From contig SLMM01000176.1 in the NCBI GenBank assembly GCA_007133565.1, positions 1 through 37,272 on the forward strand: a stretch of 37,272 nucleotides of DNA, read 5' to 3'. Shown piece after piece: positions 12,976 to 36,558 of the stretch (within the stretch, counting starts at the first letter, position 1; the number at the start of each line of letters is the position of its first letter). The position numbers were made by a program, and so were the translations under genes. This DNA comes from Bacteroidales bacterium. GTDB lineage: Bacteria; Bacteroidota; Bacteroidia; Bacteroidales; PUMT01. The notes beneath the pieces were generated by a model that was not told the origin of the DNA, ran no database searches, and saw nothing but the letters and a program-made list of their open reading frames with translations.

Positions 12976-14187
12976 ATGAACACACAAGACTACATCAAAA
13001 GAGAAGAGAAGTACGGGGCGCATAACTATCATCCTATACCGGTAGTGCTTGAAAGGGGCGAAGGTATATATGTATGGGATGTTGAAGGAAAACGTTATTT
13101 TGATTTTCTTTCAGCTTATTCAGCCGTAAACCAGGGACACTGCCATCCTAAAATCATAGATGCACTTACAGCACAGGCCGGCAGGCTTTGTCTTACCTCC
13201 CGTGCATTTCACAATTCATGTCTGGGTGAATATGAAGAATATATAACCAGGTATTTCGGTTATGACAAGGTGCTGCCTATGAATACAGGAGTTGAGGGAG
13301 ATGAGACCGCCCTGAAGCTATGTCGTAAATGGGCATACCTCAAAAAGGGTGTGCCTGAGAACGAGGCCAAGATTATAGTATGTGAGAATAATTTTCACGG
13401 ACGGACAATAACCATCGTCTCTATCTCAACCGATCCTGATGCCAGGAGGCATTACGGGCCATATACACCGGGGTTTGTCACTATACCCTACAATGACCTG
13501 GATGCCCTTGAAAAGGAACTGAATGACCCTAATGTCGCAGGTTTTCTGGTAGAACCGATACAGGGGGAGGCAGGCGTTTATGTGCCTGACGACGGTTACC
13601 TGAAAGGTGTGAGTGAACTGTGCAAAAAGCATAATGTTTTGTTTATTGCCGATGAAGTGCAGACCGGCATTGCAAGGACAGGAAGGCTGCTTGCCTGCGA
13701 CCACGAGAATGTACGGCCCGACATCCTTATTCTCGGAAAGGCCCTTTCCGGTGGTGTGTATCCGGTTTCGGCCGTACTTGCCGATGATGATATTATGCTG
13801 ACCATTAAGCCGGGAGAGCATGGTTCTACATACGGGGGAAACCCTGTTGCAGCCAGGGTGGCTATGGCGGCCCTTGAAGTGGTGAAGGAGGAGAACCTTG
13901 CTGATAATGCTGAACGACTCGGAAAAGTATTCAGGGAAGAGATGAGCAAAATCAATTCAGAGATGGTCGAGTTAGTGAGGGGTAAAGGCCTGCTAAACGC
14001 AATTGTGATTAAACCCAGGAACGGAAAGACTGCACAGGATGTATGCCTCAAAATGAAAGACAACGGGGTGCTGGCCAAACCTACACACGGTCATATTATC
14101 AGGTTTGCCCCGCCGCTGGTAATAAATGAACAACAGCTGAGGGAAGCATCATCAATAATTGCCGAATCTATTAAATCTTTTGACTGA
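12976..14187 (+). CDS. rocD: Ornithine aminotransferase
   Basis: RocD is a class-III PLP aminotransferase that moves the delta-amino group of ornithine to 2-oxoglutarate, giving glutamate-5-semialdehyde and glutamate. The N-terminus ([36 protein letters not shown], split here between residues ~14 and 49) is diagnostic of ornithine rather than acetylornithine enzymes. Others are [31 protein letters not shown] and the PLP lysine, Lys255, in LGKALSGG. At 403 residues it has the normal bacterial length. Its product is also the intermediate made by ProB/ProA, encoded at 28397-30526, so it links ornithine with proline and glutamate. A clear terminator follows, so it is a single-gene unit. Confidence 0.95.
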
Positions 14188-20015: not shown

Positions 20016-22394
20016 ATGTTAAGGAAACTATACCTGGGAGTCGGACTGCTTTCGGCGTCAATCATAGCTTTTCAGTTAACCCTTATGCAGGTGCTTTCCA
20101 TAATTCAATGGAGCCATTTTGCATACATGGTTATATCAGTAGCACTTTTGGGTTTTGGGGCGAGCGGTACTGTTCTCGCGATTGCAAGGGCCTGGTTCGT
20201 GAATCGCATTCATTCAATCCTTCCCCTGCTGATGGTTCTTTCAGGAGCATCAATGTCGCTTATAATGCTTGTCTCTTCAACAGTTTTCGGAAGTTTTGAT
20301 TCATACCTGCTGTTTGTTGACCGGAGCCAGATATTTACCCTGCTCATAACCTATTTTGCTTTCTTCATCCCGTTTTTTCTGGGAGCGCTGGCTATCGGAC
20401 TGGTTTATATTCATTATGTGGAGAAAATAGGCCCGCTGTACTTTGCCGACCTGTTGGGATCAGGTATAGGCGGATTGCTTATGCTGCTGCTTTTCTGGAT
20501 CTTTTCACCTGCACAGCTTCCTTCTGCTGTTGGTTTGATGCCTGTCGTTGCAGGCGCCCTTTTAATTCCCCAAGAGCTTCGTACCCGCTTTGTGCCCCTT
20601 CTTATTGCTGCCGTCGTGCTGCCGGTAATTCTTGTCATTAAACCTCCCTCCCTGCCCATGTCTCAATATAAAAGCCTCTCGGGAGCCCTGAATCTTCCGG
20701 AAGCAGAGATTGTCAAGGAGAAGACAAGCCCCTACGGGCAACTCAACGTGGTACGGTCGCCGGCGCTCAGGTATGCTCCGGGTTTAAGCCTTACCTTTAC
20801 TGAAACCGTACCTGTTCGCGACGTGATTTTCAACAACGGTAACTGGTTCGGACCAGTTGTTGAATGGTCTGAGACCGATACAAGTCATTTTCTTAACTAT
20901 ACCACCAATAACCTGCCGTATGTTGTCGGAAAGCCTGACAACCTCCTGCTGCTTGATGCGGGAACAGGTTTGTTTGCTGCCCATGCCCTCACAATGGGGG
21001 TTGAAAATATTACAGCCGTAGAGCAGAACAGGGTTGCCGTCAACCTGCTGAAAAAGGAACTTGCACCAATGATTGATTCCATGTATCACCTGCCTGAGGT
21101 CACGCCGGTCAATATACACTCCCGCAGTTATCTTCTGGCAGACGACAATTTGTATGACCTCATAATACTTCCCACATCAGAAACCTTTGGTGGCACATCC
21201 GGAATAAATGCCCTTGAAGAGCAGTTCATAATGACCATGGAATCCTTTGCAGAAATGCGCAGCAGGTTAACCGAAGACGGCATGATCTCAATCACATCAT
21301 GGATGGATTATCCGCCCCGGAACACGCTCAAGCTTCTGGCAACGCTTGTTGAGGCCCATGAGGCTGAAAGTGATGCACCTGTCGAGGAACATATTGCTGC
21401 GATACGCGGATGGGGAACCATCACTTTCGTACTTAAGAAATCACCCGTTACAGGTAAGGAAGCAGATAATATCAGGGAGTTCTGCCACAAAATGTTCTTT
21501 GATCCGGTGTTGCTCCCGGGGCTTGACCCGGAAGAGCGGTCGGTTTACAACCAGCTTCAGGATGACGATTTTTTCATGTATGTTGACAAAATTATGTCTG
21601 ATGACAGAGATGAGTTCTACAGGGAATATGATTTCAACATACGGCCTGCTACCGATAATATACCTTATTTTTCCCAGTTCCTGAAACTGAGCCGGTACAG
21701 AAAGATGGAAGAGGTATTCGGTCAGTCATCCGTTCCGTTTCTTGAGATAGGTTACCTGGTTGTTATTATTACCTTCCTGCAGATAACCGCGGCGGCTGTC
21801 ATACTGATAATCCTTCCCCTGTTCGCCCTGGGCTGGAAAGGGGCTGGAAAAGCCTATACTGTTTTGCATTTCAGTGGAATCGGACTCGGCTTCATGTTTA
21901 TCGAAATAACCCTTATCCAGCAATTTATTCTCTATTTTGGCAACCCGATTTATGCAGCAGCGGCAGTTCTGAGCGGCATGCTGATCTGTTCAGGGGTAGG
22001 TAGTTATGCTTCGTCAAGATTAGGTACCGGAGCCATGGATTTTGTCAGGGTGCTTTCGCTCGTAATATTCTTTATTCTTCTCTATATCCTTTTTCTCACG
22101 CCTCTTTTGCGTGCCACAATCAATCTGCCGTTGCTTCTGAAGATATTCCTGTCGATATTGTTTATATCGCCGGCTGCATTTTTTATGGGCATGCCTTTCC
22201 CACTGGGGCTGAGAAAACTGGCTGTACACAACAGGTTGCTTATACCCTGGGCGTGGGGAATTAACGGCTGCCTGTCGGTTATCAGCACTGCCCTTGCAAC
22301 AATCATTGCAGTGGAGGCCGGATTTCTTGCGGTAATGCTTATCGCGGCACTTTCTTACGCGCTTACACTTGCTGCTAACCTTTTAAAAATATGA
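20016..22394 (+). CDS. Membrane protein with central spermidine-synthase-like domain
   Basis: The 792-residue protein has three parts. Residues 1-~210 hold about seven hydrophobic segments. Residues ~220-560 form a soluble SpeE-like/class-I methyltransferase domain, with motif I LLLLDAGTGLFAAHALTMG, the acidic end of strand 2 ITAVEQNRVAVNLL, YDLIILPTSE and RPATDNIPYFSQF. Residues ~575-790 hold about seven more segments. This layout is known for uncharacterised membrane-bound spermidine-synthase homologues; aminopropyl transfer has not been shown for most and should not be assumed. The soluble domain's side of the membrane is unclear. The start of the next gene overlaps its stop by 4 bases, so the two are translationally coupled. 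Confidence 0.85.
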   Translation: MLRKLYLGVGLLSASIIAFQLTLMQVLSIIQWSHFAYMVISVALLGFGASGTVLAIARAWFVNRIHSILPLLMVLSGASMSLIMLVSSTVFGSFDSYLLFVDRSQIFTLLITYFAFFIPFFLGALAIGLVYIHYVEKIGPLYFADLLGSGIGGLLMLLLFWIFSPAQLPSAVGLMPVVAGALLIPQELRTRFVPLLIAAVVLPVILVIKPPSLPMSQYKSLSGALNLPEAEIVKEKTSPYGQLNVVRSPALRYAPGLSLTFTETVPVRDVIFNNGNWFGPVVEWSETDTSHFLNYTTNNLPYVVGKPDNLLLLDAGTGLFAAHALTMGVENITAVEQNRVAVNLLKKELAPMIDSMYHLPEVTPVNIHSRSYLLADDNLYDLIILPTSETFGGTSGINALEEQFIMTMESFAEMRSRLTEDGMISITSWMDYPPRNTLKLLATLVEAHEAESDAPVEEHIAAIRGWGTITFVLKKSPVTGKEADNIREFCHKMFFDPVLLPGLDPEERSVYNQLQDDDFFMYVDKIMSDDRDEFYREYDFNIRPATDNIPYFSQFLKLSRYRKMEEVFGQSSVPFLEIGYLVVIITFLQITAAAVILIILPLFALGWKGAGKAYTVLHFSGIGLGFMFIEITLIQQFILYFGNPIYAAAAVLSGMLICSGVGSYASSRLGTGAMDFVRVLSLVIFFILLYILFLTPLLRATINLPLLLKIFLSILFISPAAFFMGMPFPLGLRKLAVHNRLLIPWAWGINGCLSVISTALATIIAVEAGFLAVMLIAALSYALTLAANLLKI

Positions 22395-23086: not shown

Positions 23087-24421
23087 TTAGCGTACCGGCC
23101 TCAGGGGGCTGGTCTCGCGTATAAAAATGAACGAATCATACCTTTCAGGCATTATGGTTGGTACATAATTGCCCGCCTCATGCCGGGGATTGTATACAAC
23201 GCCTATTGCCCTGTGGCCTATGAACTCAGATAGTGCCGGGTGGGAACGGTCTTCCTGGTCAAACAGAAGGTAGAACTGTTCATGGCCAACCTGCCCGAAT
23301 ATGTATTCATAGCTGCCTTCAATTCCTTCGGGCACCTGCATCCTGTGCATACTTGACCCCCAGCTGCTGCCTGCATTCACCCTTCCGGTGTAGGTCCCGA
23401 AACCGTTTATGAATACACGGTCCTTCCCCAGCTCTTCCCTGCTGAGTTTGCCGATGTTAACCATGTTCTGGTAGCGCATCACGGTAGCATCGGCATCTCC
23501 AACGTGGGTATTGTGTGCCCATACTATGCCTTTGGAATCCTCCCCGTACCACCTGAGCAATCTCTTTACGGTTTCCCACATGTGTGTTGCCCTGCTGTTC
23601 CATGAGGCTGTGTTGTCAGTAATGGCGAGTCTGAAAAAGTCTTCGGCATTTTTCACTACATAGGCATTCTGCTTTGCTCTTCTGAAATCTTCCAACTCAT
23701 CCCCTTCGATCAGTCCGGACATCTCCCTGAATATTTCTGTTACCTTTTCAAGATCACCTTCACAGGAAGGATGTCCCCTTCCGACAACTGCCCTTGCATA
23801 GACCCATTCGTCGCGGTCATAACCGGCAAAGCACTCCATGCTTCTGCTGATCTGCCTGTGGTGTCTTTGCATATTTTTTGACGTGAATTCCAGGAGGTCA
23901 TCCATCGCTTCCCACTGGCCATATACATCCATGCCGTAGAAACCGACTTTCTGATCGTCAGGAAGAGTGCTGTTATATTCCCGCATCCATTCTGCCAGCT
24001 TCTCAATTTCGGTATTTCCCCACATCCATTCAGGCCACCGGTCAAATCTCCTTAGTACCCGCCTGGCTGATGAAGGTGCTCCGGGACGGCCTTTAACGTA
24101 TTCATTAAGCCTGTATATCGATGCCCAGTCGCCCTCGACTGCAACAAAGGAAAAATCCTTTTCGGTTATCAGCCGTTTTGTAATTTCTGCCCTCCACTCA
24201 TAAAACTCTGATGTTCCATGTGATGCCTCCCCCAACAGGACAAGATCGCGTTCTCCCATGGCAGCTATTATTTCATCAAGGCCACCTGCATCGGCAAAGG
24301 GCACGGCTTTATTTGAAAAATATTGAATAAGCTCCCTGGTGCCTGATCCTGATGACACAGAGCATTGAAGCAAAAGGATAATTAAAATGGCTAATGTTGA
24401 TTTAGAAACATAAAATCTCAT
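23087..24421 (-). CDS. Exported erythromycin-esterase family protein
   Basis: This 444-residue protein has a signal peptide (hydrophobic ~8-20; the sequence LLQCS could even be a lipobox with Cys20) and a full-length erythromycin-esterase/EreA-type domain. Motifs include LVLLGEASHGTSEFYEWRAEI (residues ~60-80, the conserved Glu/His), FVAVEGDWASIYRLNEYV, WMREYN, YGMDVYG and IVWAHNTHVGDA with its His pair. Most members of this family are not macrolide resistance enzymes; they are hydrolases of unknown substrate, and an exported form is unlike the classical cytoplasmic EreA/EreB. It is a single gene, divergent from argR. I would not call it a resistance gene. Confidence 0.88.
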   Translation of the reverse strand: MRFYVSKSTLAILIILLLQCSVSSGSGTRELIQYFSNKAVPFADAGGLDEIIAAMGERDLVLLGEASHGTSEFYEWRAEITKRLITEKDFSFVAVEGDWASIYRLNEYVKGRPGAPSSARRVLRRFDRWPEWMWGNTEIEKLAEWMREYNSTLPDDQKVGFYGMDVYGQWEAMDDLLEFTSKNMQRHHRQISRSMECFAGYDRDEWVYARAVVGRGHPSCEGDLEKVTEIFREMSGLIEGDELEDFRRAKQNAYVVKNAEDFFRLAITDNTASWNSRATHMWETVKRLLRWYGEDSKGIVWAHNTHVGDADATVMRYQNMVNIGKLSREELGKDRVFINGFGTYTGRVNAGSSWGSSMHRMQVPEGIEGSYEYIFGQVGHEQFYLLFDQEDRSHPALSEFIGHRAIGVVYNPRHEAGNYVPTIMPERYDSFIFIRETSPLRPVR

Positions 24422-24487: not shown

Positions 24488-24526
24488 TATGTATATATTT
24501 GCATCGCACATGCATATATATGCAGG
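24488..24526 (+). promoter_or_regulatory. ArgR operator: two ARG-box-like sites
   Basis: Two 14-base cores resemble the ARG box core TGAATwwwwATTCA. The first is TGTATATATTTGCA (24490-24503, 11 of 14); the second is TGCATATATATGCA (24511-24524, 12 of 14 and a perfect palindrome). Their centres are 21 bp apart, so with 18-bp boxes they are separated by 3 bp, the arrangement of paired boxes in E. coli arginine operators. The first covers the predicted -7 octamer and the second the likely start site, so binding would block transcription of argR and the genes behind it. Confidence 0.65.
24494..24501 (+). promoter_or_regulatory. Bacteroidetes-type -7 element (TATATTTG) before argR
   Basis: TATATTTG fits TAnnTTTG and ends 51 bases before the argR ATG. 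A TTG at 24467-24469 is 24 bases upstream, a little farther than the usual 19-21. The element lies inside the first ARG-box-like site. Confidence 0.55.
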
Positions 24527-24552: not shown

Positions 24553-25026
24553 ATGAACAGGACTGAGCGTTTACTTGAAATAAGGAGACTGATAAGGACC
24601 AATAAGATCGGAAACCAGGAAGAGTTGCTGAAACTGCTTATAGATAATGGTTTCAGGTACACCCAGGCAACACTTTCCAGAGACCTTAAGTTTCTCAGGG
24701 CGGGTAAAAAACCGGATGCTGAAAAGGGATTGATATATTTTTTACCTGATAATCTACCTGTTGATAGTGAAAATGAGGAAGTGATGAAGGAGGCGGTAAA
24801 CCAGGGTTACCTTTCTGTCGATTATACCGGCAACATGGCTGTAATAAAAACCCTGCCAGGTTTTGCAAGCGGGATAGCATACAGGATTGATGGCATGAAA
24901 GCCTTTGAAATACTTGGAACCATTGCCGGAGATGATACAATCCTGGTAATTTCCCGCGAAGGGATCAGCAGGCGGGATCTGGAGCGGGTCCTGACAAGTG
25001 CAATACCTGGCAGCGTTAACGTTTAG
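24553..25026 (+). CDS. argR: Arginine repressor
   Basis: ArgR is a hexameric transcription factor that binds ARG boxes when arginine is present. The 157-residue protein has the N-terminal winged helix (RTERLLEIRRLI, then NQEELLKLLIDNGFRYTQATLSRDLKFL, residues ~16-48) and the C-terminal arginine-binding/oligomerisation domain. The latter has GFASGIAYRIDGM and GTIAGDDTILV, in which Asp127-Asp128 match the pair that holds the arginine guanidinium. The recognition helix reads ATLSRDLK rather than the usual TVSRDIK, a conservative change. It heads the cluster argG-argH-proB-like-proB-proA-gltB-gltD, with argG 54 bases downstream, and has a pair of ARG-box-like sites over its own promoter, so autoregulation is likely. 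Confidence 0.95.
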   Translation: MNRTERLLEIRRLIRTNKIGNQEELLKLLIDNGFRYTQATLSRDLKFLRAGKKPDAEKGLIYFLPDNLPVDSENEEVMKEAVNQGYLSVDYTGNMAVIKTLPGFASGIAYRIDGMKAFEILGTIAGDDTILVISREGISRRDLERVLTSAIPGSVNV

Positions 25027-25080: not shown

Positions 25081-26316
25081 ATGACAATTAACAAGAAAAA
25101 GATAGTCCTTGCGTACAGCGGGGGACTGGACACATCGGTAATACTGAAGTGGCTTATTGACGAGGGTTATGAAGTTATTGCCTACATTGCCGATGTAGGG
25201 CAGGATGACGATTTTGAAGAAGCAAGGGAAAAGGCGATCGCGATCGGTGCGGCCGGGGTTTATATAGAAGATCTTAAAGAGGAGTTCGTGACCAGTTATA
25301 TACTGCCCGCCATAAAGGCAAACGCCTTGTATGAAAGCCGCTACCTGCTGGGAACAGCCCTGGCACGACCGCTTATAGCAAAAAGGCAGATTGAAATAGC
25401 TGCTTTAGAGAATGCAGGTTATGTGTCACATGGAGCAACCGGCAAGGGCAATGACCAGGTCAGGTTTGAGCTTGCTTACTATGCGCTTAATCCCCTTATC
25501 AAAGTGTTTGCACCCTGGAAGAACAGGAAGTTCCTTGAACAGTTCAAGGGCAGAACAGATCTGCTAAGGTATGCCGAGGCCAAAGGAATTCCTGTTAAGG
25601 CAACTCTCAAAAAGCCATACAGTGAAGATGATAACCTGATGCATATAAGCCATGAGGCAGGAATACTTGAAGATCCTAAATTCAGGGCGGGCAGAGATAT
25701 CATTTCACGTATAAGGATGCCACAGGATGCACCTGACAAAGAGACGCATATTTCGATCACTTTCAAAGACGGAACTCCTGTCAGCGTGGTTAATACTGAC
25801 GAGAATACCGAAAAATCAGATCCGCTCGAAATGTACTCCTGGTTGAACAACCTTGGTGCCGAAAACGGCATAGGACTACTCGACATGGTCGAGAACAGGT
25901 ACGTGGGAATTAAGTCGAGGGGAGTTTATGAAACACCTGGTGCCGAGATACTGCTGAAAGCTCATATGGATATAGAGGGTATAGCAATGGACAGGGAGGT
26001 AATGAGGCTCAGGAATATGTTGTCGCCTGTATTTGCCGAGCTTGTTTACAACGGATTCTGGTTCAGCCCTGAAATGGAATTCCTGATGGCTGCGGTTAAT
26101 AAAAGCCAGGAGCTGATTGATGGTACCGTATATCTGACTCTGTATAAAGGCAACGTGATGATTGACGGTCGTGAATCTCCAAGCTCTCTTTATGACCAGG
26201 ACCTTTCAAGCATGGATATTGAAGGAGGATTTAACCAGCAGGACAGTGAAGGATTTATAAAAATCAACGCGATAAGGCTGATGGCTCACCATGCAATAAC
26301 AGTATCCCGCCAGTGA
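25081..26316 (+). CDS. argG: Argininosuccinate synthase
   Basis: ArgG joins citrulline and aspartate, using ATP, to form argininosuccinate, the penultimate step of arginine synthesis. The 411-residue cytoplasmic protein has the normal length. It carries the N-type ATP pyrophosphatase loop [15 protein letters not shown] near residue 11, and [21 protein letters not shown] around 120, which binds citrulline and aspartate. There is also the late [15 protein letters not shown] segment. It starts 54 bases after the argR stop, and argH follows 27 bases after its own stop, so argR-argG-argH read as one unit. I see no separate promoter or ARG box between argR and argG. Confidence 0.97.
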
Positions 26317-26343: not shown

Positions 26344-27675
26344 ATGAAGCTTTGGGATAAAGGTAAAGAGACTGAAAAACTTGTGGCAGATTTCACAGCA
26401 GGCAAGGATAGCCAGATTGACCTTGCACTTGCAGCCTGGGATATTATCGGCACACTTGCCCATGTTAAAATGCTTGAGAAGGCGGGGCTGATAACTGTTA
26501 AGGAACTTCATGCCCTTGAGGCGGAACTCAGGAAGATTTACAAAATCATTGAAAGAGGTGATTTCATTATTGAGGAGGGTGTTGAAGATGTCCACAGCCA
26601 GGTGGAACTGATGCTTACCACCGCTCTTGGAGATACAGGCAAAAAGGTCCATACCGCAAGATCGAGAAATGACCAGGTGCTTGTTGACATTAAACTTTTC
26701 ACAAGGGCAGGCCTCCGGGATATTGCCGGTCTCATTCTTGAGCTCTTTCACAGGCTTTTGCATTTAAGTAACAGGCACAAGGATGTGTTGATGCCTGGTT
26801 ATACCCACATGCAGGTTGCCATGCCTTCCTCCTTTGGGTTATGGTTCGGTGCATGGGCTGAATGCCTTACAGAAGATATGCTGCTTCTTGAGGCTGCATA
26901 CCGGATAGCCGACCAGAACCCCCTGGGATCGGCGGCCGGATTTGGCTCCTCTTTTCCTGTCGACAGGGAGTTTACAACATCCTTACTTGGGTTTGGCAAT
27001 ATGCACGTGAATGTTGTCAATGCACAGATGAGCAGAGGAAGGATGGAGAAAGCAGCAGCTTTTGCGATCGGCTCAGCCGGCTCGACACTTGCCGGGATGG
27101 CAGGCGATATTTGCCTGTATAGTGGTCAGAACTACGGCTTCATCGAACTTCCTGAAAAGTTCACAACAGGATCAAGCATCATGCCACACAAAAAGAATCC
27201 CGATGTGTTTGAGCTGGTACGCGCCACCGGGAACAGGCTCCAGTCCCTACCTACCGAAATATCAATGATATGCGCCAACCTGCCGTCAGGTTACCACAGA
27301 GATTACCAGCTGATAAAGGAGACTTATCTGCCGGCATTCAGCATATTAAGCGAACTTATCTCAGTAACAAACAGACTGATAACAGAGATCGTGGTAAATG
27401 AGGAAATACTTGACAACAATATTTACAATGATCTTTTCAGTGTAGAAGAGGTAAACAGGCTGGTAATGGGTGGTATGCCGTTCAGGGAGGCTTACAGGAC
27501 CGTTGCAGGTAAGATAGCTGCAGGTGAATTCAAACCTCTTACAGGATTAGATCATACCCATATTGGCAGCATCGGCAACCTTTGCAATGAGTTGATAGAA
27601 TCTAAAATGGAAAAGATAATGTCGCGGCTGGACTTCACCACTGCAGAAGAAGCCATTGCCGGATTACTGGGGTGA
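26344..27675 (+). CDS. argH: Argininosuccinate lyase
   Basis: ArgH splits argininosuccinate to arginine and fumarate, the last step of arginine synthesis. The 443-residue protein shows the superfamily landmarks in order: EDVHSQVELML, the substrate motif GKKVHTARSRNDQV, GYTHMQVAMPSSFGLW with the catalytic His, and the fumarase/aspartase signature GSSIMPHKKNPD with the active-site Ser. The C-terminal part is shorter than in some members but continues past the signature through the usual helical bundle. It follows argG with 27 bases between. A degenerate proB-like gene starts 34 bases after its stop. Confidence 0.97.
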   Translation: MKLWDKGKETEKLVADFTAGKDSQIDLALAAWDIIGTLAHVKMLEKAGLITVKELHALEAELRKIYKIIERGDFIIEEGVEDVHSQVELMLTTALGDTGKKVHTARSRNDQVLVDIKLFTRAGLRDIAGLILELFHRLLHLSNRHKDVLMPGYTHMQVAMPSSFGLWFGAWAECLTEDMLLLEAAYRIADQNPLGSAAGFGSSFPVDREFTTSLLGFGNMHVNVVNAQMSRGRMEKAAAFAIGSAGSTLAGMAGDICLYSGQNYGFIELPEKFTTGSSIMPHKKNPDVFELVRATGNRLQSLPTEISMICANLPSGYHRDYQLIKETYLPAFSILSELISVTNRLITEIVVNEEILDNNIYNDLFSVEEVNRLVMGGMPFREAYRTVAGKIAAGEFKPLTGLDHTHIGSIGNLCNELIESKMEKIMSRLDFTTAEEAIAGLLG

Positions 27676-27709: not shown

Positions 27710-28396
27710 ATGACAGCACAACATTGCGGAACAATTGTATTCAAAATAGAATTCGAGACCCTTTGCGGTGACGATGGCAAAGTGAGCAGCGCCAGGATGG
27801 AACATCTTGCCATGCTGTGCTCAAATATGAGAAATTCAGGAGTGGATGTACTCCTGGTTTCCTCAGGAGCGATTGCCCTGGGCGCCTGCAGGCTCAATAT
27901 GCCTTTGATTCCACCCGGCATCACTGCCAAACAGGCAACGGCAGCTGTCGGACAGGCTGAACTGATTATGATGTACCAGGACTGCTTTGACAGGTTCGGC
28001 CAGACCGTGGCTCAGGTTCTCCTGACATGTGATGCTACAGGGGATCCCGTAAGGAACAAGAACGCCAGAAACACGCTGGCCAGACTTCTGCAAAAAGGTA
28101 TTATACCTGTAATAAATGAAAATGACTCCGTAAGCACAACAGATATCATCTTAAATGACAACTATCCTCTCGCCCTGATGGCATCTGAGCTTACAGATGC
28201 AGATTCAATTGTGATAAGTACATCAGATCCCGAAACTTTCATTGTTTTTATCAAGGGCTACCCATCGGTTATAACTACTGGCACGGGTGAGCTTATTGAA
28301 CTGGCTGGCAGGATTGACAGAGGGGAGTATGATCATTTCATCGGTACAGGATATTTTCCAGGTTATAACGAATATGCAGGTGCAACAATTAACTGA
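27710..28396 (+). CDS. Degenerate glutamate 5-kinase-like paralog (probable pseudokinase)
   Basis: The 228-residue protein is a paralog of the proB product encoded directly behind it. Shared stretches are LLVSSGAIALGA, KQATAAVGQAEL, VAQVLLT and IIPVINENDS. The catalytic parts are altered: after the conserved Lys12 the Gly-Ser-Ser loop reads IEFE instead of TGSS; the GDND motif reads LNDN (148-151); and the GTGGMxxK motif with its ATP-contacting Lys is replaced by GTGYFPGYNEY. The last ~50 residues of the kinase domain are missing. The frame is intact with no internal stop, it sits 34 bases after argH, and its stop touches the proB start. This suggests a maintained non-catalytic subunit, though early pseudogene decay is possible. 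It is not ArgB: the motifs are those of ProB. Confidence 0.8.
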   Translation: MTAQHCGTIVFKIEFETLCGDDGKVSSARMEHLAMLCSNMRNSGVDVLLVSSGAIALGACRLNMPLIPPGITAKQATAAVGQAELIMMYQDCFDRFGQTVAQVLLTCDATGDPVRNKNARNTLARLLQKGIIPVINENDSVSTTDIILNDNYPLALMASELTDADSIVISTSDPETFIVFIKGYPSVITTGTGELIELAGRIDRGEYDHFIGTGYFPGYNEYAGATIN

Positions 28397-29227
28397 ATGA
28401 TCATGGAAGAATGGAAGAAGCTTATGGATTGCAGGACCATAGTCGTTAAAACGGGAAGTTCTACCCTTACATTCCCGAACGGGCGATTGAATTACCACAG
28501 ACTTATGAGGCTGGCAGAGACGATGTCTGCAATCCAGAGATCGGGCAAAAAACTGATACTGGTATCCTCCGGAGCTATCGCGGTAGGATCGGGAAGGATG
28601 GGGATCAATTCAAAGCCTGCTGATCTGGCCGACAAGCAGGCGCTTGCAGCCATCGGGCAGGCAGAGCTGATAAGGATCTACAGGAGGTTTTTCGATTACA
28701 ATTGTCAGAAGGTGGCGCAGGTATTGCTCACAAAGGATATTGTCATCAATCATGAAAGAAGGGTTAATGCAAGCAATACCCTGGCAGAACTTCTTAAAAT
28801 GGATATAATTCCCATTGTAAATGAGAACGACACTGTTGCTACAGACGAGATAGAGTTTGGCGATAACGACACATTGTCGTCCTATGTGGCAGAACTTGCC
28901 GGAGCCGATCTTCTGGTCCTGTTGTCAGACATTGACGGGCTGTTTACTGCTGACCCTACAAAAGATCAATATGCAAAGCTTATCAGGGTTGTAAACCGGC
29001 TGACAGAAGATATGGAAAAGTCGGCTGCAGGTTCATCAACTGGTTTCGGGACCGGCGGTATGGCAGCCAAAATTGCTGCAGCACGCATTTGCCGGTCAGC
29101 CGATATTAAAGTTGTTATTGCAAACGGATCGCGCCCTGGTATTTTGTCTGACATCCTTCAGGGGAACGAGGCGGGAACATTGTTTACATGGGACCGCGAC
29201 CCTGTAAAATCTGCCCGGCCAGGCTGA
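28397..29227 (+). CDS. proB: Glutamate 5-kinase, short form without PUA domain
   Basis: ProB phosphorylates glutamate to glutamyl-5-phosphate, the first and feedback-controlled step of proline synthesis. The amino-acid-kinase domain is complete: KTGSS (Lys18-Ser22), LVSSGAIAVG, KQALAAIGQAEL, NENDTVATDEIEFGDND (NEND 142-145, GDND 155-158) and GTGGMAAK with Lys225. At 276 residues it lacks the ~80-residue C-terminal PUA domain of E. coli-type enzymes and stops soon after the kinase fold. An ATG at 28403 is an equally good start. The ATG follows the preceding stop directly, so it is probably translated by coupling with the degenerate paralog. proA follows 54 bases later. Confidence 0.93.
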   Translation: MIMEEWKKLMDCRTIVVKTGSSTLTFPNGRLNYHRLMRLAETMSAIQRSGKKLILVSSGAIAVGSGRMGINSKPADLADKQALAAIGQAELIRIYRRFFDYNCQKVAQVLLTKDIVINHERRVNASNTLAELLKMDIIPIVNENDTVATDEIEFGDNDTLSSYVAELAGADLLVLLSDIDGLFTADPTKDQYAKLIRVVNRLTEDMEKSAAGSSTGFGTGGMAAKIAAARICRSADIKVVIANGSRPGILSDILQGNEAGTLFTWDRDPVKSARPG

Positions 29228-29281
29228 ACCCGGGTGAACCGGAAACTGGATATTGAATACCAAACTATATTATTTGTCACA

Positions 29282-30526
29282 ATGGATGAATTGATCGAAA
29301 AAGGTGCACAGGCGAAAAAGGCATCAGTATTTCTTGCAAGGATGTCATCTGACGAAAAGAGATCGGCGCTGGAAGAAATTGCCCGTTTACTGGAGGCAAA
29401 GTCCGATAGGGTAATAACTGCCAACACCAGGGATCTGGAAAATGCGCAGAAGAATGGTATCAGCGGACCCCTCATTGACCGTCTGACACTGAACCCCGAA
29501 CGAATAAGCGCTATGTCGGAAGGTATAAGGCAGATAGCCAGGCTTGACGACCCTGTGGGCGAAGTCCTGTACATGAAAAAGCGGCCCAACGGATTGCAGA
29601 TCGGTCAGGTAAGGGTACCCATCGGGGTTATAGGAATTATCTATGAAGCCAGGCCCAATGTTACAGCCGATGCATCAGGACTATGCCTGATGGCGGGTAA
29701 CGCAGTGCTTCTCCGGGGAGGCAAAGAGGCCATTAACTCAAATATTGCCATTACCGGCATCATACAGGATGCGCTTTCAGCCAGGGGGATACCTGCCGGG
29801 GCCGTCCAGCTTGTTGAGAACACCGGCAGGGAAAGTGCAATGGCAATGATGAAACTGAACAAATACCTTGATCTGTTGATACCAAGAGGCGGTGCGGGGC
29901 TTATAAAAACCGTGGTCGAAAACAGCAGGGTACCTGTAGTGGAAACCGGCGTTGGAAACTGTCACGCGTACATTGACCAGACAGCTGACCTGGTGATGGC
30001 TGAAAAGATCGTCATAAATGCAAAAACACAGAGGCCGGGTGTATGCAATGCAATAGAAACATTGCTTGTCCACCGGTCACTGGCCGGCGGTTTTTTACCG
30101 GTCATCTGCGAAACTCTTAAAAAACACAATGTTGAGATAAGGGGCGACAATTACGTTACCAGCCTTGTTCCGTACGCGGTTAATGCCACTGATGACGATT
30201 GGTACGAAGAATACCTTGATCTCAGGATCGCTTTGAAAATTGTTGAGAACACAGCCGATGCAATTGATCATATAAACAGTTACGGTTCCGGACATTCTGA
30301 GACCATCGTAACCGAAAGTTATGCTAATGCCCAAAGGTTTGTATCGGAGGTCAACTCTGCAGCAGTTTATGTGAATGCCTCGACACGGTTTACTGACGGC
30401 TTCGAATTCGGGTTTGGCGCCGAGATAGGTATTTCAACACAGAAGCTTCATGCACGCGGACCTATGGGGTTGAGGGATCTTACTTCAACAAAATACATCA
30501 TTTATGGCAATGGCCAGGTAAGGTAA
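29282..30526 (+). CDS. proA: Glutamate-5-semialdehyde dehydrogenase (gamma-glutamyl phosphate reductase)
   Basis: ProA reduces glutamyl-5-phosphate with NADPH to glutamate-5-semialdehyde, which cyclises toward proline. I start it at ATG 29282 (414 residues, MDELIEKGAQAKK), the family's usual N-terminus; a GTG at 29234 would add 16 residues unlike the family. Signatures are VPIGVIGIIYEARPNVTADA, GNAVLLRGGKEA, LIPRGGAGLI and the catalytic Cys255 in TQRPGVCNAIETLL. FGFGAEIGISTQKLHARGPMGL closes the domain. The length is normal. It follows proB and is 52 bases ahead of gltB on the same strand. No terminator hairpin is seen on either side, so read-through into gltB is possible. Confidence 0.97.
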   Translation: MDELIEKGAQAKKASVFLARMSSDEKRSALEEIARLLEAKSDRVITANTRDLENAQKNGISGPLIDRLTLNPERISAMSEGIRQIARLDDPVGEVLYMKKRPNGLQIGQVRVPIGVIGIIYEARPNVTADASGLCLMAGNAVLLRGGKEAINSNIAITGIIQDALSARGIPAGAVQLVENTGRESAMAMMKLNKYLDLLIPRGGAGLIKTVVENSRVPVVETGVGNCHAYIDQTADLVMAEKIVINAKTQRPGVCNAIETLLVHRSLAGGFLPVICETLKKHNVEIRGDNYVTSLVPYAVNATDDDWYEEYLDLRIALKIVENTADAIDHINSYGSGHSETIVTESYANAQRFVSEVNSAAVYVNASTRFTDGFEFGFGAEIGISTQKLHARGPMGLRDLTSTKYIIYGNGQVR

Positions 30527-30578: not shown

Positions 30579-33500
30579 ATGGCTTCAGGCAGATATGGAA
30601 ATACAGGGTTGTACTCCCCCGAAAATGAGCATGATAGTTGCGGCATAGGTTTCGTGGCCAGCATAAGGGGCATAAAATCTCATGAAATTGTTGAACGCGG
30701 ACTTGGGGTTTTGCTTAAAATGACCCACAGGGGTGCCGAAAGCGCCGACAATGTGACCGGCGACGGAGCTGGCATAATGGTACAGATCCCACATGAGTTT
30801 TATCTATCTGAAATTGCGAACCTGCCACCTGCCGGAAGCTATGGGACGGGACTTGTTTTCTTGCCCGGCAACAAAACGGACAGGGAGAGTTGCGAGGAGA
30901 TGCTATTCTCACAGGTCAGCAAAGAGAACCTGCATATTGCTGCTGTCAGGGATGTTCCGGTAAACAGCAGTGTTCTGGGTGAAATTGCCCTCCGTACCGA
31001 ACCTTGTATAAGACAGGTATTCATTACAGGAAACCACGAGCAGGAAGACCTTGAACGTAAGCTTTATGTTATCCGGAAACTTGTTGAGAAACAGATCAGA
31101 AGCTCGACTATCGGTCAGAAAGATTGGTTCTCAGTTCCAAGCCTGTCGACCAGGGTAATTGTATATAAAGGCATGTTTACACCTGAGCAGCTGCAGCGAT
31201 ACTATCCTGATCTGGGTGAGAAAATATTTGCCAGCGCTATAGCACTGGTGCATTCAAGATTCAGCACCAACACATTTCCAACCTGGGACCTTGCCCAGCC
31301 TTTCAGGTTCCTTGCCCACAATGGTGAAATAAATACCATAAGAGGTAACCGTCTATGGATGCAGGCCCGGGAATCTTTGCTGAAAACAGATCTTTTCGGA
31401 AGCGACCTGCAGAAACTCTTCCCGGTAATTGAACCGGGCAAAAGCGATTCTGCTTCGCTCGACAATGCGCTGGAATTTCTGGTGCTGACCGGGCGATCTC
31501 TGCCACATGCTCTTTCGATGCTGGTTCCCGAATCGTTTAACGACAAAAATCCCATTCCTGGCAGCCTGAAGGATTACTATGAATATCACTCAACCATAAT
31601 GGAGCCCTGGGACGGACCGGCATCACTGCTCTTCAGTGATGGCAGGTATGTGGGGGGGACACTTGACCGTAACGGATTGCGTCCCTCAAGATACCTTATA
31701 ACCGATGATGACCTTATTGTCATGGGCAGCGAGACGGGTGTACAGGATTTCCCGGCTGACAGGATAAAGGAGAAGGGAAGACTAAGGCCGGGCAAGATAC
31801 TGCTGGTCGACACAAAACTGGGGGTGATAATACCCGATGAGGAGCTTAAATCACAGCTCTCAAGGATGAATCCATACGGTAACTGGCTACGGGAGAATCG
31901 CCTTGAACTTGAAAATATTGAGGTGAAAGAACGGGTGCCATCTGGCATGGGCGATAAATACCCGCTATGGCTTAAAGCATTCGGATACACCCGCGAAGAT
32001 ACAGAAGAGATGATAAAACCCATGTGTATTGATGGCAGGGAGCCAACAGCCTCAATGGGTAATGATACACCTCCCGCAATTTTATCGGATAAACCCCAGA
32101 GGCTGTTCAACTATTTCAGGCAGCAGTTTGCACAGGTCACCAATCCGGCCATTGATCCGATAAGGGAAGGGCTGGTAATGTCGCTTACAAATTATATAGG
32201 CTCGCTGAACAAGAATATTCTTGAGGAGTCACCGAGTATTTGCAGGCTGGTGAAATTCAAGAGCCCGGTAATTATCAATACCGATCTTAAAAAACTAAAA
32301 GATCTTGAAGCATCTGGTTTCACGCACAGGGTGCTCAGCATGGTATTTAATTCGCAAGGTGGCGGAGACGCTCTGGATGCAGCACTTCAAAACCTTTGTT
32401 CTGAAGCTGAAAAAGCGGTCGATGATAATGTGAACTTTATAATTCTCTCTGACCGCGATATTGACAGGAAATATGCCCCGATACCATCGCTCCTTGCCGT
32501 TTCGGCAGTCCATCACCACCTGATACAGACCAAAAAGAGAATGCAGGCCGGATTGATAGTTGAAACAGCAGAGGCACGGGAGGTTATGCATTTTGCACTG
32601 TTGCTGGGATATGGTGCAAGCGTTGTCAATCCCTATCTGGCCTTTGCAGTGATTGATGAGCTTGCAGAAAAAGGAGAAACAGGAATTGAATATAAAAAGG
32701 CCAGGGAGAACTATATAAAAGCAATAGATGGAGGCTTGCTGAAGATAATGTCAAAAATGGGTATTTCGACACTCAGAAGCTACCATGGTGCACAAATATT
32801 TGAGTGCCTCGGAATTTCAGAAAAGGTAATAGACAAATATTTCAACGGCACCGCTTCACGAATAGGCGGAACAGGTCTCGACGGGATTGCTGCCGAAGCA
32901 TCAGGGCCTCACAGGCAGGCATTTGACACACCGGCAGACAAGGGTTTTGACCCGGTTACCCAGGGGTATTATTCCTTCAGGATGAACGGCGAACATCACG
33001 GATGGAACCCTGAAACAATAAGCCTCCTTCAATGGGCTGCAAAGACCGGTGATTATTCAAAGTACAGGGAGTTCAGCTCACTTGTCCACCATGAGAACCG
33101 GAAACCCACTTTTTTGCGTGGCTTTCTCGACTTTAAGAAAAATTCTGTCAGCATAGACGAAGTTGAACCCGAAGAAGCTATTCTGAAAAGGTTTGTTACC
33201 GGCGCCATGTCGTTTGGCTCGATAAGCAAGGAGGCGCATGAGGCCCTGGCAATTGCAATGAACCGCATTGGCGGCAGGAGCAATACCGGCGAAGGAGGTG
33301 AGGATGTGGGAAGGTACATTGCTGTTAACGGTAAAGAGAATAAAAGGAGCGCCATCAAGCAGGTTGCTTCTGGCAGGTTCGGCGTTACTGCAGGATACCT
33401 TGTAAGCGGCGATGAAATACAGATAAAAATATCGCAGGGGGCCAAGCCGGGTGAAGGGGGGCAGTTGCCCGGTTTCAAGGTCAATGGTGTAATAGCGGGA

Positions 33501-35111
33501 CTGCGTAATTCAACCCCGGGCATAACCCTTATCTCTCCCCCGCCCCATCATGACATTTATTCAATTGAAGACCTGGCACAGCTTATTTTTGATCTGAAGT
33601 GCATAAATCCGTCAGCAACTATATCTGTTAAGCTGGTATCAGAGTACGGCGTCGGTACAATAGCGGCCGGCGTTGCAAAGGCAAAGGCCGATCTGATAAC
33701 CATCAGCGGCTGTGAGGGCGGAACAGGTGCCAGTCCCGCCAGCTCGATCAGGCATGCCGGGCTCCCTGCCGAGCTGGGCATATCTGAGGCACACCAGACA
33801 CTGGTGCTGAACAACCTCAGGGGAAGGGTGAAACTACAGACTGACGGCCAATTGAAAACCGGTCATGACGTTATCCTGATGGGTATGCTGGGTGCCGAGG
33901 AATTCGGCTTTTCAACTGCTGCTTTGATCGTTCTTGGTTGTGTTATGATGAGAAAATGCCATCTTAACACCTGCCCTGTTGGTGTGGCGACCCAGGACGA
34001 AACACTCAGAAAGCGTTTTCTCGGAAGGGCAGATTATGTTGAGAATTATTTCAGGTTCCTGGCCAGGGAGGTGCGTGAACTCCTGGCTGAAGCCGGAATC
34101 AAAAGGTTTGATGATATTGTGGGCCGGTCTGACCTGCTTGTACAGCGTAATGATATTTCACACTGGAAGGCAAGGTACACCGATCTTTCAGCGATGCTAC
34201 ATTTTCCGCTGGCAGGAGAAAATGTGCCAAGGTGCTTTGAGAGGCCCCAGGAGCACAAGCTTGAAGGGATAATTGACAGAGAACTTATAAAACTCTCATC
34301 AAAAGCTTTAAGCAAGGGTGAAAAGGTATGGATATCAAGGCCTATCAGAAATACCGACAGGGCGGCAGGGACAATGCTTTCGGGTGAAATAACGAGGCGA
34401 AATGGTTTCAGGGAGCTTTCCGGCGACCTGATCAATGCGAGGTTCTATGGATCGGCCGGACAAAGTTTCGGTGCCTTCCTGGTAAAAGGGGTCAACTTTT
34501 ATCTTGAAGGCGACACAAATGATTACCTGGGTAAGGGCCTATCGGGAGGGCGGATAGTCCTGACCCCTCCAAAGGGTTCAAAGTTCAGGCCCGAAGAGAA
34601 CATTATAACCGGAAACACTGTCCTGTACGGGGCAACGGGAGGCGAGCTTTATGTTCACGGTATGGCCGGCGAAAGGTTTGCCGTCAGAAACAGTGGTGCA
34701 ATAGCTGTTTCTGAAGGTGTTGGAGACCATGGTTGTGAGTATATGACCGGAGGCAGGGTTGTTATACTGGGCAGTACCGGGAGGAATTTTGCTGCAGGAA
34801 TGAGCGGGGGCATAGCCTGGGTCCTTGATCTCAAGGGTAATTTCGATTATTTCTGCAACAGGGGCCTTGTTGAACTTGAAAAGGTCAGTGATATGACAGA
34901 TATAAACGAGTTACAGGAGATAATAGGAAAACACCTGCAGTATACCGGCAGTAAGCTGGCAGAAAGGATACTTGCTGAGTGGGACGATTATCTCCCAAAA
35001 TTTGTCAAGGTCATACCTTTTGAATATAAAAAGGTGCTGCAGGAGATGAAGGTAGAAAATCTCAGGAAAAAACTTGAGGCAACTGAGGACAAACCTCAGC
35101 ATCAGTATTGA
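30579..35111 (+). CDS. gltB: Glutamate synthase, large (alpha) subunit
   Basis: GltB with GltD turns glutamine plus 2-oxoglutarate into two glutamates using NADPH. The 1510-residue protein has the full family layout. Cys21 in DSCGIGFVA is the amidotransferase nucleophile, exposed after removal of a 20-residue propeptide; the class-II glutaminase domain follows to ~430, with HSRFSTNTFPTWDLAQPFRFLAHNGE split across 220-250. Then come the central domain, the FMN/synthase domain (~830-1220) with GEGGED, KPGEGGQLPG and the 3Fe-4S ligands Cys1121, Cys1127 and Cys1132, and the C-terminal beta-helix with Gly-rich turns. gltD follows 28 bases later. Its placement directly behind proBA puts glutamate supply next to the pathways that consume it. 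Confidence 0.98.
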   Translation: MASGRYGNTGLYSPENEHDSCGIGFVASIRGIKSHEIVERGLGVLLKMTHRGAESADNVTGDGAGIMVQIPHEFYLSEIANLPPAGSYGTGLVFLPGNKTDRESCEEMLFSQVSKENLHIAAVRDVPVNSSVLGEIALRTEPCIRQVFITGNHEQEDLERKLYVIRKLVEKQIRSSTIGQKDWFSVPSLSTRVIVYKGMFTPEQLQRYYPDLGEKIFASAIALVHSRFSTNTFPTWDLAQPFRFLAHNGEINTIRGNRLWMQARESLLKTDLFGSDLQKLFPVIEPGKSDSASLDNALEFLVLTGRSLPHALSMLVPESFNDKNPIPGSLKDYYEYHSTIMEPWDGPASLLFSDGRYVGGTLDRNGLRPSRYLITDDDLIVMGSETGVQDFPADRIKEKGRLRPGKILLVDTKLGVIIPDEELKSQLSRMNPYGNWLRENRLELENIEVKERVPSGMGDKYPLWLKAFGYTREDTEEMIKPMCIDGREPTASMGNDTPPAILSDKPQRLFNYFRQQFAQVTNPAIDPIREGLVMSLTNYIGSLNKNILEESPSICRLVKFKSPVIINTDLKKLKDLEASGFTHRVLSMVFNSQGGGDALDAALQNLCSEAEKAVDDNVNFIILSDRDIDRKYAPIPSLLAVSAVHHHLIQTKKRMQAGLIVETAEAREVMHFALLLGYGASVVNPYLAFAVIDELAEKGETGIEYKKARENYIKAIDGGLLKIMSKMGISTLRSYHGAQIFECLGISEKVIDKYFNGTASRIGGTGLDGIAAEASGPHRQAFDTPADKGFDPVTQGYYSFRMNGEHHGWNPETISLLQWAAKTGDYSKYREFSSLVHHENRKPTFLRGFLDFKKNSVSIDEVEPEEAILKRFVTGAMSFGSISKEAHEALAIAMNRIGGRSNTGEGGEDVGRYIAVNGKENKRSAIKQVASGRFGVTAGYLVSGDEIQIKISQGAKPGEGGQLPGFKVNGVIAGLRNSTPGITLISPPPHHDIYSIEDLAQLIFDLKCINPSATISVKLVSEYGVGTIAAGVAKAKADLITISGCEGGTGASPASSIRHAGLPAELGISEAHQTLVLNNLRGRVKLQTDGQLKTGHDVILMGMLGAEEFGFSTAALIVLGCVMMRKCHLNTCPVGVATQDETLRKRFLGRADYVENYFRFLAREVRELLAEAGIKRFDDIVGRSDLLVQRNDISHWKARYTDLSAMLHFPLAGENVPRCFERPQEHKLEGIIDRELIKLSSKALSKGEKVWISRPIRNTDRAAGTMLSGEITRRNGFRELSGDLINARFYGSAGQSFGAFLVKGVNFYLEGDTNDYLGKGLSGGRIVLTPPKGSKFRPEENIITGNTVLYGATGGELYVHGMAGERFAVRNSGAIAVSEGVGDHGCEYMTGGRVVILGSTGRNFAAGMSGGIAWVLDLKGNFDYFCNRGLVELEKVSDMTDINELQEIIGKHLQYTGSKLAERILAEWDDYLPKFVKVIPFEYKKVLQEMKVENLRKKLEATEDKPQHQY

Positions 35112-35139: not shown

Positions 35140-36558
35140 ATGGGAGATCCCAGGGGATTTATGAAAGTTGCCAGGAAAGAAGGAGGCAACAGGCCTGTTT
35201 ATGAACGGCGGCATGATTATTCAGAGGTAGAACAGACACTAAACCAGGATGACCGCCGGCTACAGGCATCCAGGTGTATGGATTGCGGGGTCCCTTTCTG
35301 CCAGTGGGCATGTCCGGTGATCAACAACATGCCTGAATGGCAGGATGCCATGTACAGGGGGAAGTGGGAAGAGGCCGCCAATCTGTTGCACACCACGAAT
35401 AATTTTCCTGAATTCACCGGTCGGGTATGTCCGGCCCCCTGTGAAAATGGCTGTGTTCTGGCGTTGCATGAAGAGGCTGTAACGATCAGGGAAAATGAGG
35501 CTGCTGCCGCTGAAATGGCATTCGAGAATGGATACATAACCGCAAGGCCTCCTCTGATGCGCACCGGCAAAAAAGTAGCTGTGATCGGATCAGGGCCGGC
35601 CGGACTTGCATGCGCTGACCTTCTGAACAAGTCTGGACACACGGTAACTGTCTTTGAGAAAGACGATGCTCCGGGCGGACTGCTGCGTTATGGCATACCC
35701 GATTTCAAGCTGGGCAAAAATATCGTTGACCGCAGAATAAACTTAATGAAGGAGGAGGGTATAATTTTCAGGACCTCAGTAAATGCAGGCTATGATATTG
35801 ATCCGGATGAGCTAATTGAAAGATATGATGCCCTGTGCCTTACGATTGGTGCTATGAAGCCCCGCGACCTGGATATTGATGGCCGGCAGCTTGAGGGCAT
35901 ATATTTCGCCATGGACTATCTGACCTGCCAGAACAGGATTGTTGCAGGCAGGCTTGAAGGAGAAGCAATCAGTGCTGCCGGAAAGCACGTACTTGTAATC
36001 GGAGGAGGTGACACCGGCTCCGATTGTGTAGGTACGGCAAACAGGCAGGGGGCAAAATCGATAACACAGGTTGAAATATTGCCAGAACCTCCTGGGAAAA
36101 GAGTTCCCGGAAATCCATGGCCATACTGGCCACAGACCCTCAAAACATCGTCATCGCACGAAGAGGGTTGTAAAAGGTTATGGGGAATCAAAACAAAAAG
36201 GTTCCTGGGTTCAGAAAGCAGGGTTCAGAAAGCTGAGATATGTGAAGTAGAGTGGGTTAAAGATGATAGCAGCAGTATTAACATGAGAGAAAAACCCGGC
36301 AGTACCAGTGAAATTGAAGCCGGACTGGTTTTGCTTGCCCTCGGGTTCGTACACCCCGATCATGGCGGACTTGTCACCGCCCTTGATCTGGGCCTGGACA
36401 ACCGGGGAAATATATTGACTGATCCTTTTGGTAAAACAACTCGTGAGAAAGTATTTGCAGCCGGCGACAGCGCTTCAGGGGCATCTCTGGTTGTGACAGC
36501 AATTGATTCGGGAAGGAGAGCTGCCCATGGCATATCATCATGGCTGGAAGGAAGATAA
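35140..36558 (+). CDS. gltD: Glutamate synthase, small (beta) subunit
   Basis: GltD passes electrons from NADPH through FAD and two 4Fe-4S clusters to GltB. The 472-residue protein has the N-terminal cysteine sets Cys46/49/54/58 (RCMDCGVPFCQWACP) and Cys97/101/105 (RVCPAPCENGC). The FAD-binding GSGPAG is at 150-155, with GGLLRYGIPDFKL after it, the NADPH-binding GGGDTG near 288-293, and the C-terminal FAD motif VFAAGDSASGASLVV. Length and layout are normal. It is the last gene of the + strand run that starts at argR; its stop lies 8 bases from the end of the opposite-strand msrA, with no visible terminator between. Confidence 0.98.
   Translation: MGDPRGFMKVARKEGGNRPVYERRHDYSEVEQTLNQDDRRLQASRCMDCGVPFCQWACPVINNMPEWQDAMYRGKWEEAANLLHTTNNFPEFTGRVCPAPCENGCVLALHEEAVTIRENEAAAAEMAFENGYITARPPLMRTGKKVAVIGSGPAGLACADLLNKSGHTVTVFEKDDAPGGLLRYGIPDFKLGKNIVDRRINLMKEEGIIFRTSVNAGYDIDPDELIERYDALCLTIGAMKPRDLDIDGRQLEGIYFAMDYLTCQNRIVAGRLEGEAISAAGKHVLVIGGGDTGSDCVGTANRQGAKSITQVEILPEPPGKRVPGNPWPYWPQTLKTSSSHEEGCKRLWGIKTKRFLGSESRVQKAEICEVEWVKDDSSSINMREKPGSTSEIEAGLVLLALGFVHPDHGGLVTALDLGLDNRGNILTDPFGKTTREKVFAAGDSASGASLVVTAIDSGRRAAHGISSWLEGR

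Follow-up and report, generated by a model that had tools for sequence, protein, structure and literature searches.

Glutamate 5-kinase (G5K) has been described as an oligomer of identical chains in which proline is sensed in the active site or beside it. In the E. coli enzyme the proline pocket adjoins the substrate site and involves Asn134 (printed as Asn34) and Asp137, and removal of the PUA domain leaves proline feedback in place (PMC6099280). Since feedback persists without PUA, regulation is not known to require a substitute for this domain. In other enzymes, control by a relative that has no catalytic role of its own has been described: in T. brucei AdoMetDC is activated by its prozyme, a catalytically dead paralog (PMC5201418, PMC6221367), and in N-acetylglutamate synthase (NAGS) an amino-acid-kinase-like domain regulates an enzyme of glutamate-family biosynthesis (PMC4490483). 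An ornithine-inhibited splice form of mammalian P5CS, in the account cited in PMC11061531, presents a glutamate kinase that serves both proline and ornithine under end-product control. Searches of open-access literature brought up no published account of a pseudokinase or regulatory paralog of ProB.

Here we analyse such a paralog, for which the name PROBX is coined, in a window of 37,272 nucleotides from a Bacteroidales genome (contig SLMM01000176.1).

Sequence and predicted structure of PROBX

PROBX belongs to an operon with the gene order argR-argG-argH-PROBX-proB-proA-gltB-gltD (table 1). Its TGA (28394-28396) abuts the ATG of proB (28397) in the same frame, and both the ORF coordinates and this junction bear out the original prediction of tandem amino-acid-kinase genes with stop touching start; an alternative ATG of proB at 28403 would leave a gap of 6 nt. 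The annotated start of proA is GTG, and an ATG at 29285 is possible. Divergent from argR, an erythromycin-esterase-family protein is encoded at 23087-24421 (-), and an ORF of equal size (441-445 aa) and orientation occupies the same place in several congeners. Two further large ORFs of the window, at 1040-2824 (594 aa) and 20016-22394 (792 aa), have no Pfam match.

Table 1. Positions of the operon genes, PROBX elements and upstream palindromes in the window
Feature	Coordinates	Strand	Remarks
argR, arginine repressor, operon gene 1	24553..25026	+	TIGR01529, 127.9 bits, slightly below cut-off 130.5
argG, argininosuccinate synthase	25081..26316	+	NF001770, 533 bits
argH, argininosuccinate lyase	26344..27675	+	TIGR00838, 312 bits
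PROBX, ProB-derived putative pseudokinase, 228 aa	27710..28396	+	ATG to TGA
proB, PUA-less glutamate 5-kinase, 276 aa	28397..29227	+	TIGR01027, 310 bits
proA, glutamate-5-semialdehyde dehydrogenase	29234..30526	+	NF001221, 610 bits
Glutamate synthase large subunit, presumably gltB-type (named from its sequence)	30579..35111	+	ortholog order same in relatives
Glutamate synthase small subunit, gltD-type	35140..36558	+	Pfam Fer4_20 and Pyr_redox_2
Ornithine aminotransferase	12976..14187	+	TIGR01885, 687 bits, above cut-off
PROBX 12-17, degenerate P-loop KIEFET	27743..27760	+	Glu14 at the E. coli Gly12 position
PROBX 50-56, VSSGAIA, amino-acid-site loop	27857..27877	+	retained
PROBX 71-94, long helix AAVGQAEL...YQ	27920..27991	+	most conserved block of PROBX; invariant columns; helix in model
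PROBX 136-140, NENDS (E. coli N134-D137)	28115..28129	+	retained; NEND 29/29
PROBX 149-152, NDNY instead of GDND	28154..28165	+	Tyr at catalytic Asp150
PROBX 172-228, hairpin and three short helices in place of the ATP lobe	28223..28393	+	pLDDT about 76-90
ARG-box-like palindrome 1, TGTATATATTTGCA	24490..24503	.	
ARG-box-like palindrome 2, TGCATATATATGCA	24511..24524	.	21 bp from palindrome 1

PROBX is 46% identical to the adjacent ProB over 164 aa, and the similarity ends near residue 170 of PROBX. The NCBIfam proB model TIGR01027 aligns with it at model positions 2-165 of 363 and gives 162.2 bits, below the curated cut-off of 186 bits that the neighbouring ProB clears. Pfam AA_kinase (PF00696) matches both proteins; on PROBX it covers the N-terminal part only, with 52.8 bits against a gathering score of 24.9, which places the protein in the amino-acid-kinase (AAK) fold. 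AlphaFold2 predicts a compact domain (mean pLDDT 85.7, pTM 0.86) in which, after the AAK N-lobe, a short hairpin and helices close the domain. The top Foldseek matches of this model are the G5K structures 8zpj, 4q1t and 2j5t (E 1e-13 to 1e-12), with E 1.4e-13, TMq 0.67, about 165 aligned columns and an rmsd of about 2-3 Å against G5K, and the model predicts no active kinase site. Modelled as one chain, with the TGA read as Trp, PROBX and ProB give pLDDT 79 and pTM 0.64, in a model without inter-domain error estimates.

Lys10, Asp150 and Lys217 form the established catalytic set of G5K, on the basis of its structure and of analogy to NAGK. In the E. coli numbering, Gly12 of the nucleotide loop is replaced by Glu in 27 of the 29 PROBX sequences of our residue table, Asp150 by Tyr or Phe in all 29, and neither an equivalent of Lys217 nor a GTGGM loop was found in any of them. 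Thr169 and Asp170 are not conserved among PROBX sequences, Glu143 is Asp throughout, and Lys10 is retained in 13/29 with Arg in its place in 8/29. The catalytic and ATP-related positions (Gly12, Asp150, Lys217, Thr169-Asp170) are thus degenerate as a set, and those of the glutamate/proline pocket are preserved: Gly51, Asn134, Glu135, Asn136, Asp137 and Asn149 are present in every sequence and Ala52 in 28, position 50 is Ser in 21 and Ala in eight, and position 148 is Asp in 23 and Asn in six. Both proline-pocket residues of the E. coli enzyme, Asn134 and Asp137, are therefore kept.

These residues agree with what had been read from the single locus, namely that VSSGAIA, KQATAAVGQAEL, VAQVLLT and NENDS persist, that the Gly-Ser-Ser loop (now KIEFETL), GDND (now NDNY) and GTGGMxxK are altered or absent, and that the end of the domain is missing, the ATP lobe and Lys217 being absent from all 29 copies. 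Judged by its residue content PROBX is non-catalytic, and the pattern is that of a lobe for binding glutamate from which the lobe for ATP is gone. The catalytic motifs of the proB product are intact (K10, G12, D150 and K217 are all there). PROBX shares with the prozyme-like inactive regulators that it is a conserved paralog, dead in catalysis, which accompanies an active homolog.

Distribution, ancestry and selection

Searched with a profile, 393 genomes of the order yielded PROBX in 20 (18 clear and two divergent ones). Relatives have unbroken PROBX frames: 10 of the genus's 13 genomes carry one, as do six further families of Bacteroidales, and within the genus PROBX is flanked by argH and proB in every contig that shows its surroundings. 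In all 20 PROBX genomes of the order sample there is also a ProB of about 265-315 aa that lacks PUA. When ProB type was assigned by frame length, 140 genomes with ProB fell into 33 with a short form and 107 with a long PUA form; PROBX occurs in 20 of the former and none of the latter (Fisher p about 7e-16, uncorrected for phylogeny). No PROBX was found outside Bacteroidales in the class sample (395 genomes) or the phylum sample (296 genomes), and the non-Bacteroidales loci read from the contig scan have the GGM..K motif of ordinary ProBs.

It had been suggested that PROBX takes the place of the missing PUA domain. On the one hand, PROBX is found only with PUA-less ProB. On the other hand, in 13 genomes from other families of the order the PUA-less ProB is unaccompanied by PROBX. 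Counted by family, three others in Bacteroidales manage without it, and so do short ProBs in Clostridia and elsewhere in Bacteroidia. Therefore PROBX is no obligatory substitute for PUA, and simple substitution is insufficient as an explanation.

The arrangement of the pair varies. In family f11 it stands without arg genes, in families f8 and f15 proB lies directly 3' of argH with the PROBX slot empty, and in family f5 PROBX lies at one locus and proB at another. At the five f5 loci PROBX is a stand-alone gene, which in four of them adjoins a gene of 680-711 aa on the opposite strand, resembling a membrane HD-domain phosphohydrolase in the one locus read. The operon of congener G002 reads argR-argG-argH-gltB-gltD, PROBX-proB-proA being gone as one block with the rest intact, and the sister-genus genomes G013-G015 have argR-argG-argH without this block. 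In G003, a genome of the genus that is 74% complete, PROBX lies at a contig end, and this is the sole PROBX genome of the genus without ProB. Because only some PROBX-proB pairs share a frame and their spacing ranges from overlap to 154 nt, stop-codon read-through or fusion of the two genes is not a common trait.

In a maximum-likelihood tree (165 shared columns) the 29 PROBX sequences are monophyletic (UFBoot 98), and their neighbours are the order's short ProBs, among them those from families without PROBX; late duplication within the PROBX-bearing lineages is disfavoured (AU p 0.061, from only 2000 replicates). Closely related pairs from four lineages give dN/dS of 0.03-0.28 for PROBX and 0.035-0.16 for ProB, which is well below 1 and indicates purifying selection, and no frame is broken among the 29 copies, whose length stays at about 217-231 aa. 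PROBX is a single old family and no decaying copy. Its being shorter than ProB might suggest a truncated pseudogene, in frame by accident; the intact frames of relatives and the dN/dS rule out a pseudogene or chance ORF, and together with the single old clade and the constant length they leave this explanation next to no probability.

At the protein level PROBX evolves about 1.5 times as fast as ProB (mean distance 0.88 vs 0.58). The distances of the two proteins correlate (r 0.90; partial 0.54 given argG and argH), which we count as weak support. Only one weak position separates ProBs with PROBX from those without, and no loss of catalytic residues was seen in the partner ProBs of the residue table.

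Arginine control and metabolic setting

The proposal that the operon is under ArgR agrees with argR being its first gene and with two 14-bp ARG-box-like palindromes that precede argR at distances of 63 and 42 bp. The pair is kept at the same 21-bp spacing 5' of argR in most relatives checked, with or without PROBX; control of the operon by arginine through ArgR is therefore likely. Tandem palindromes of this kind span several families, and their forms range from TGCAT...ATGCA to TGAATAATTATTCA.

argB scores above cut-off in 95 of the 107 genomes with long ProB vs two of the 33 with short ProB, and argC shows the same scarcity among 39 short-ProB genomes checked. Ornithine aminotransferase is above cut-off in 38 of these 39, argH is present in 30/30 genomes checked, and ornithine carbamoyltransferase is above cut-off in 18/20. 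As nearly all hosts are without argB/argC but have ornithine aminotransferase, ProB probably feeds both proline and arginine; gene content makes it likely that in most hosts the glutamate semialdehyde made by ProB and ProA is the source of proline and of ornithine and arginine. Because argB is retained in four PROBX genomes, however, PROBX depends strictly neither on the loss of argB nor on the ornithine aminotransferase route.

Several observations concern the neighbourhood of these pathways. Across the order, short ProB and the loss of argB/argC coincide, which points to an ornithine aminotransferase route to arginine, and about 230 of the 393 genomes gave a match to neither ProB nor argB in our searches. 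All the same, G002, G013 and G014 have argH and ornithine carbamoyltransferase. In the window an aconitase gene (14398-17166) lies near that of ornithine aminotransferase, upstream of the operon, and in other families citrate synthase stands between proA and gltB; these positions suggest that genes for the supply of 2-oxoglutarate and glutamate cluster with proline and arginine genes. In eight short-proB operons without PROBX the order is GNAT acetyltransferase, ArgG-like protein (with only about 25% identity to the ArgG of the window), ProC, ArgE/LysK-like hydrolase, argH, proB and proA; these operons possibly represent an N-acylated arginine route without argB/argC.

Possible roles and comparison with known systems

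We propose that PROBX is a dead, N-lobe-only paralog of G5K that serves as a non-catalytic and probably ligand-sensing partner of PUA-less ProB, and we give this reading a probability of about 0.5. PROBX would assemble with ProB through their common AAK N-lobe into a mixed dimer or tetramer, for which the helix of residues 71-94 is a candidate dimer element, and an amino acid bound in the PROBX pocket would alter the activity of ProB. Proline would be a likely ligand, or else a different member of the glutamate family from the two branches fed by ProB, such as ornithine, and this enzyme-level control would come on top of the transcriptional response to arginine through ArgR. That PROBX associates with ProB, which ligand it binds and in which direction it shifts activity are inferences. 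A non-catalytic regulatory partner is what the original prediction had put forward, and the lost residues, the purifying selection and the tracking of PUA-less ProB speak for it, whereas the partner is not obligatory for a PUA-less ProB. Of the arginine or proline sensing that it also suggested, the second part fits the preserved glutamate/proline-type pocket, but sensing of arginine through the NAGK/NAGS site is rejected, as that region is missing in PROBX (site location from PMC4490483).

A bolder version, which we regard as doubtful, makes PROBX the sensing subunit of a two-subunit G5K, so that ProB would answer an arginine-branch metabolite, for example ornithine, as well as proline. If it is true, such a G5K acts where arginine comes from glutamate semialdehyde via ornithine aminotransferase, and a kinase-derived amino-acid pocket without a kinase serves as the sensor.

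Several other roles have to be weighed against the ligand-sensing partner. PROBX could be an obligate activator or stabiliser whose pairing with ProB increases or stabilises the activity of the latter and involves no ligand sensing; the close analogy with T. brucei AdoMetDC and its prozyme (PMC5201418, PMC6221367), the co-occurrence with short ProB and the block loss with proBA make this a tentative alternative. It leaves the invariance of Gly51, Asn134, Asp137 and Asn149 after the loss of catalysis without a purpose, since a structural role does not need them, and the partner ProBs retain catalytic residues of their own. The location of PROBX beside proB-proA, its restriction to genomes with PUA-less ProB and its loss along with proBA would also suit a scaffold that replaces the missing PUA and channels the labile gamma-glutamyl phosphate from ProB to ProA. 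We consider this unlikely, given the many PUA-less ProBs without PROBX, the unlinked genes of f5 and the proline feedback that survives removal of PUA in E. coli (PMC6099280).

The separate f5 loci mean that operon linkage is not needed in that family, and they could be read as pointing to a free amino-acid-binding protein with a target other than ProB. This is very unlikely: every PROBX genome of the order sample has ProB, the G003 exception being a contig end in an incomplete genome, and G002 retains its arg and glt genes yet has neither PROBX nor proBA. An active kinase with altered chemistry could draw on the Lys or Arg that many copies keep at position 10, but with Glu for the P-loop Gly, Tyr or Phe for Asp150, and neither Lys217 nor an ATP lobe in any copy, it is highly improbable.

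Compared with E. coli G5K (PDB 2J5T; TIGR01027), PROBX has the same fold and ancestry over residues 1-170 and the same glutamate/proline pocket residues, but it is without the P-loop glycine, Asp150, Lys217, the ATP-binding lobe and PUA, and its score stays below the family cut-off. As these defining features were tested and are lacking, PROBX is not a glutamate 5-kinase by function. TIGR02078, named as a putative paired aspartate kinase subunit of Pyrococcus, is likewise an amino-acid-kinase homolog proposed to be part of a pair, but it belongs to the aspartate kinase family; PROBX does not match this model and ProB matches it only weakly. In the P5CS splice form, as the citing article presents it, a two-residue difference within one chain is regulatory and no paralogous subunit takes part, unlike what is proposed for PROBX. 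The regulatory domain of NAGS is fused to its enzyme, whereas PROBX is a separate protein. With the T. brucei prozyme PROBX has in common that a dead paralog is kept beside an active homolog, and action in a heteromer is proposed for PROBX by analogy; the prozyme has another fold and belongs to another kingdom and pathway, and PROBX, known from sequence, is short of a whole lobe. By this analogy PROBX resembles the prozyme and the NAGS regulatory domain in manner and is a member of neither.

Regulation by dead paralogs is thus known already, and G5K is proposed here as a new enzyme family for it. A conserved pseudokinase partner would give G5K a second, separable control point, and as PROBX is found where one kinase serves both proline and arginine, regulation at this branch point can be tested directly with two small proteins. 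PROBX would then be the bacterial amino-acid-kinase counterpart of the trypanosome prozymes.
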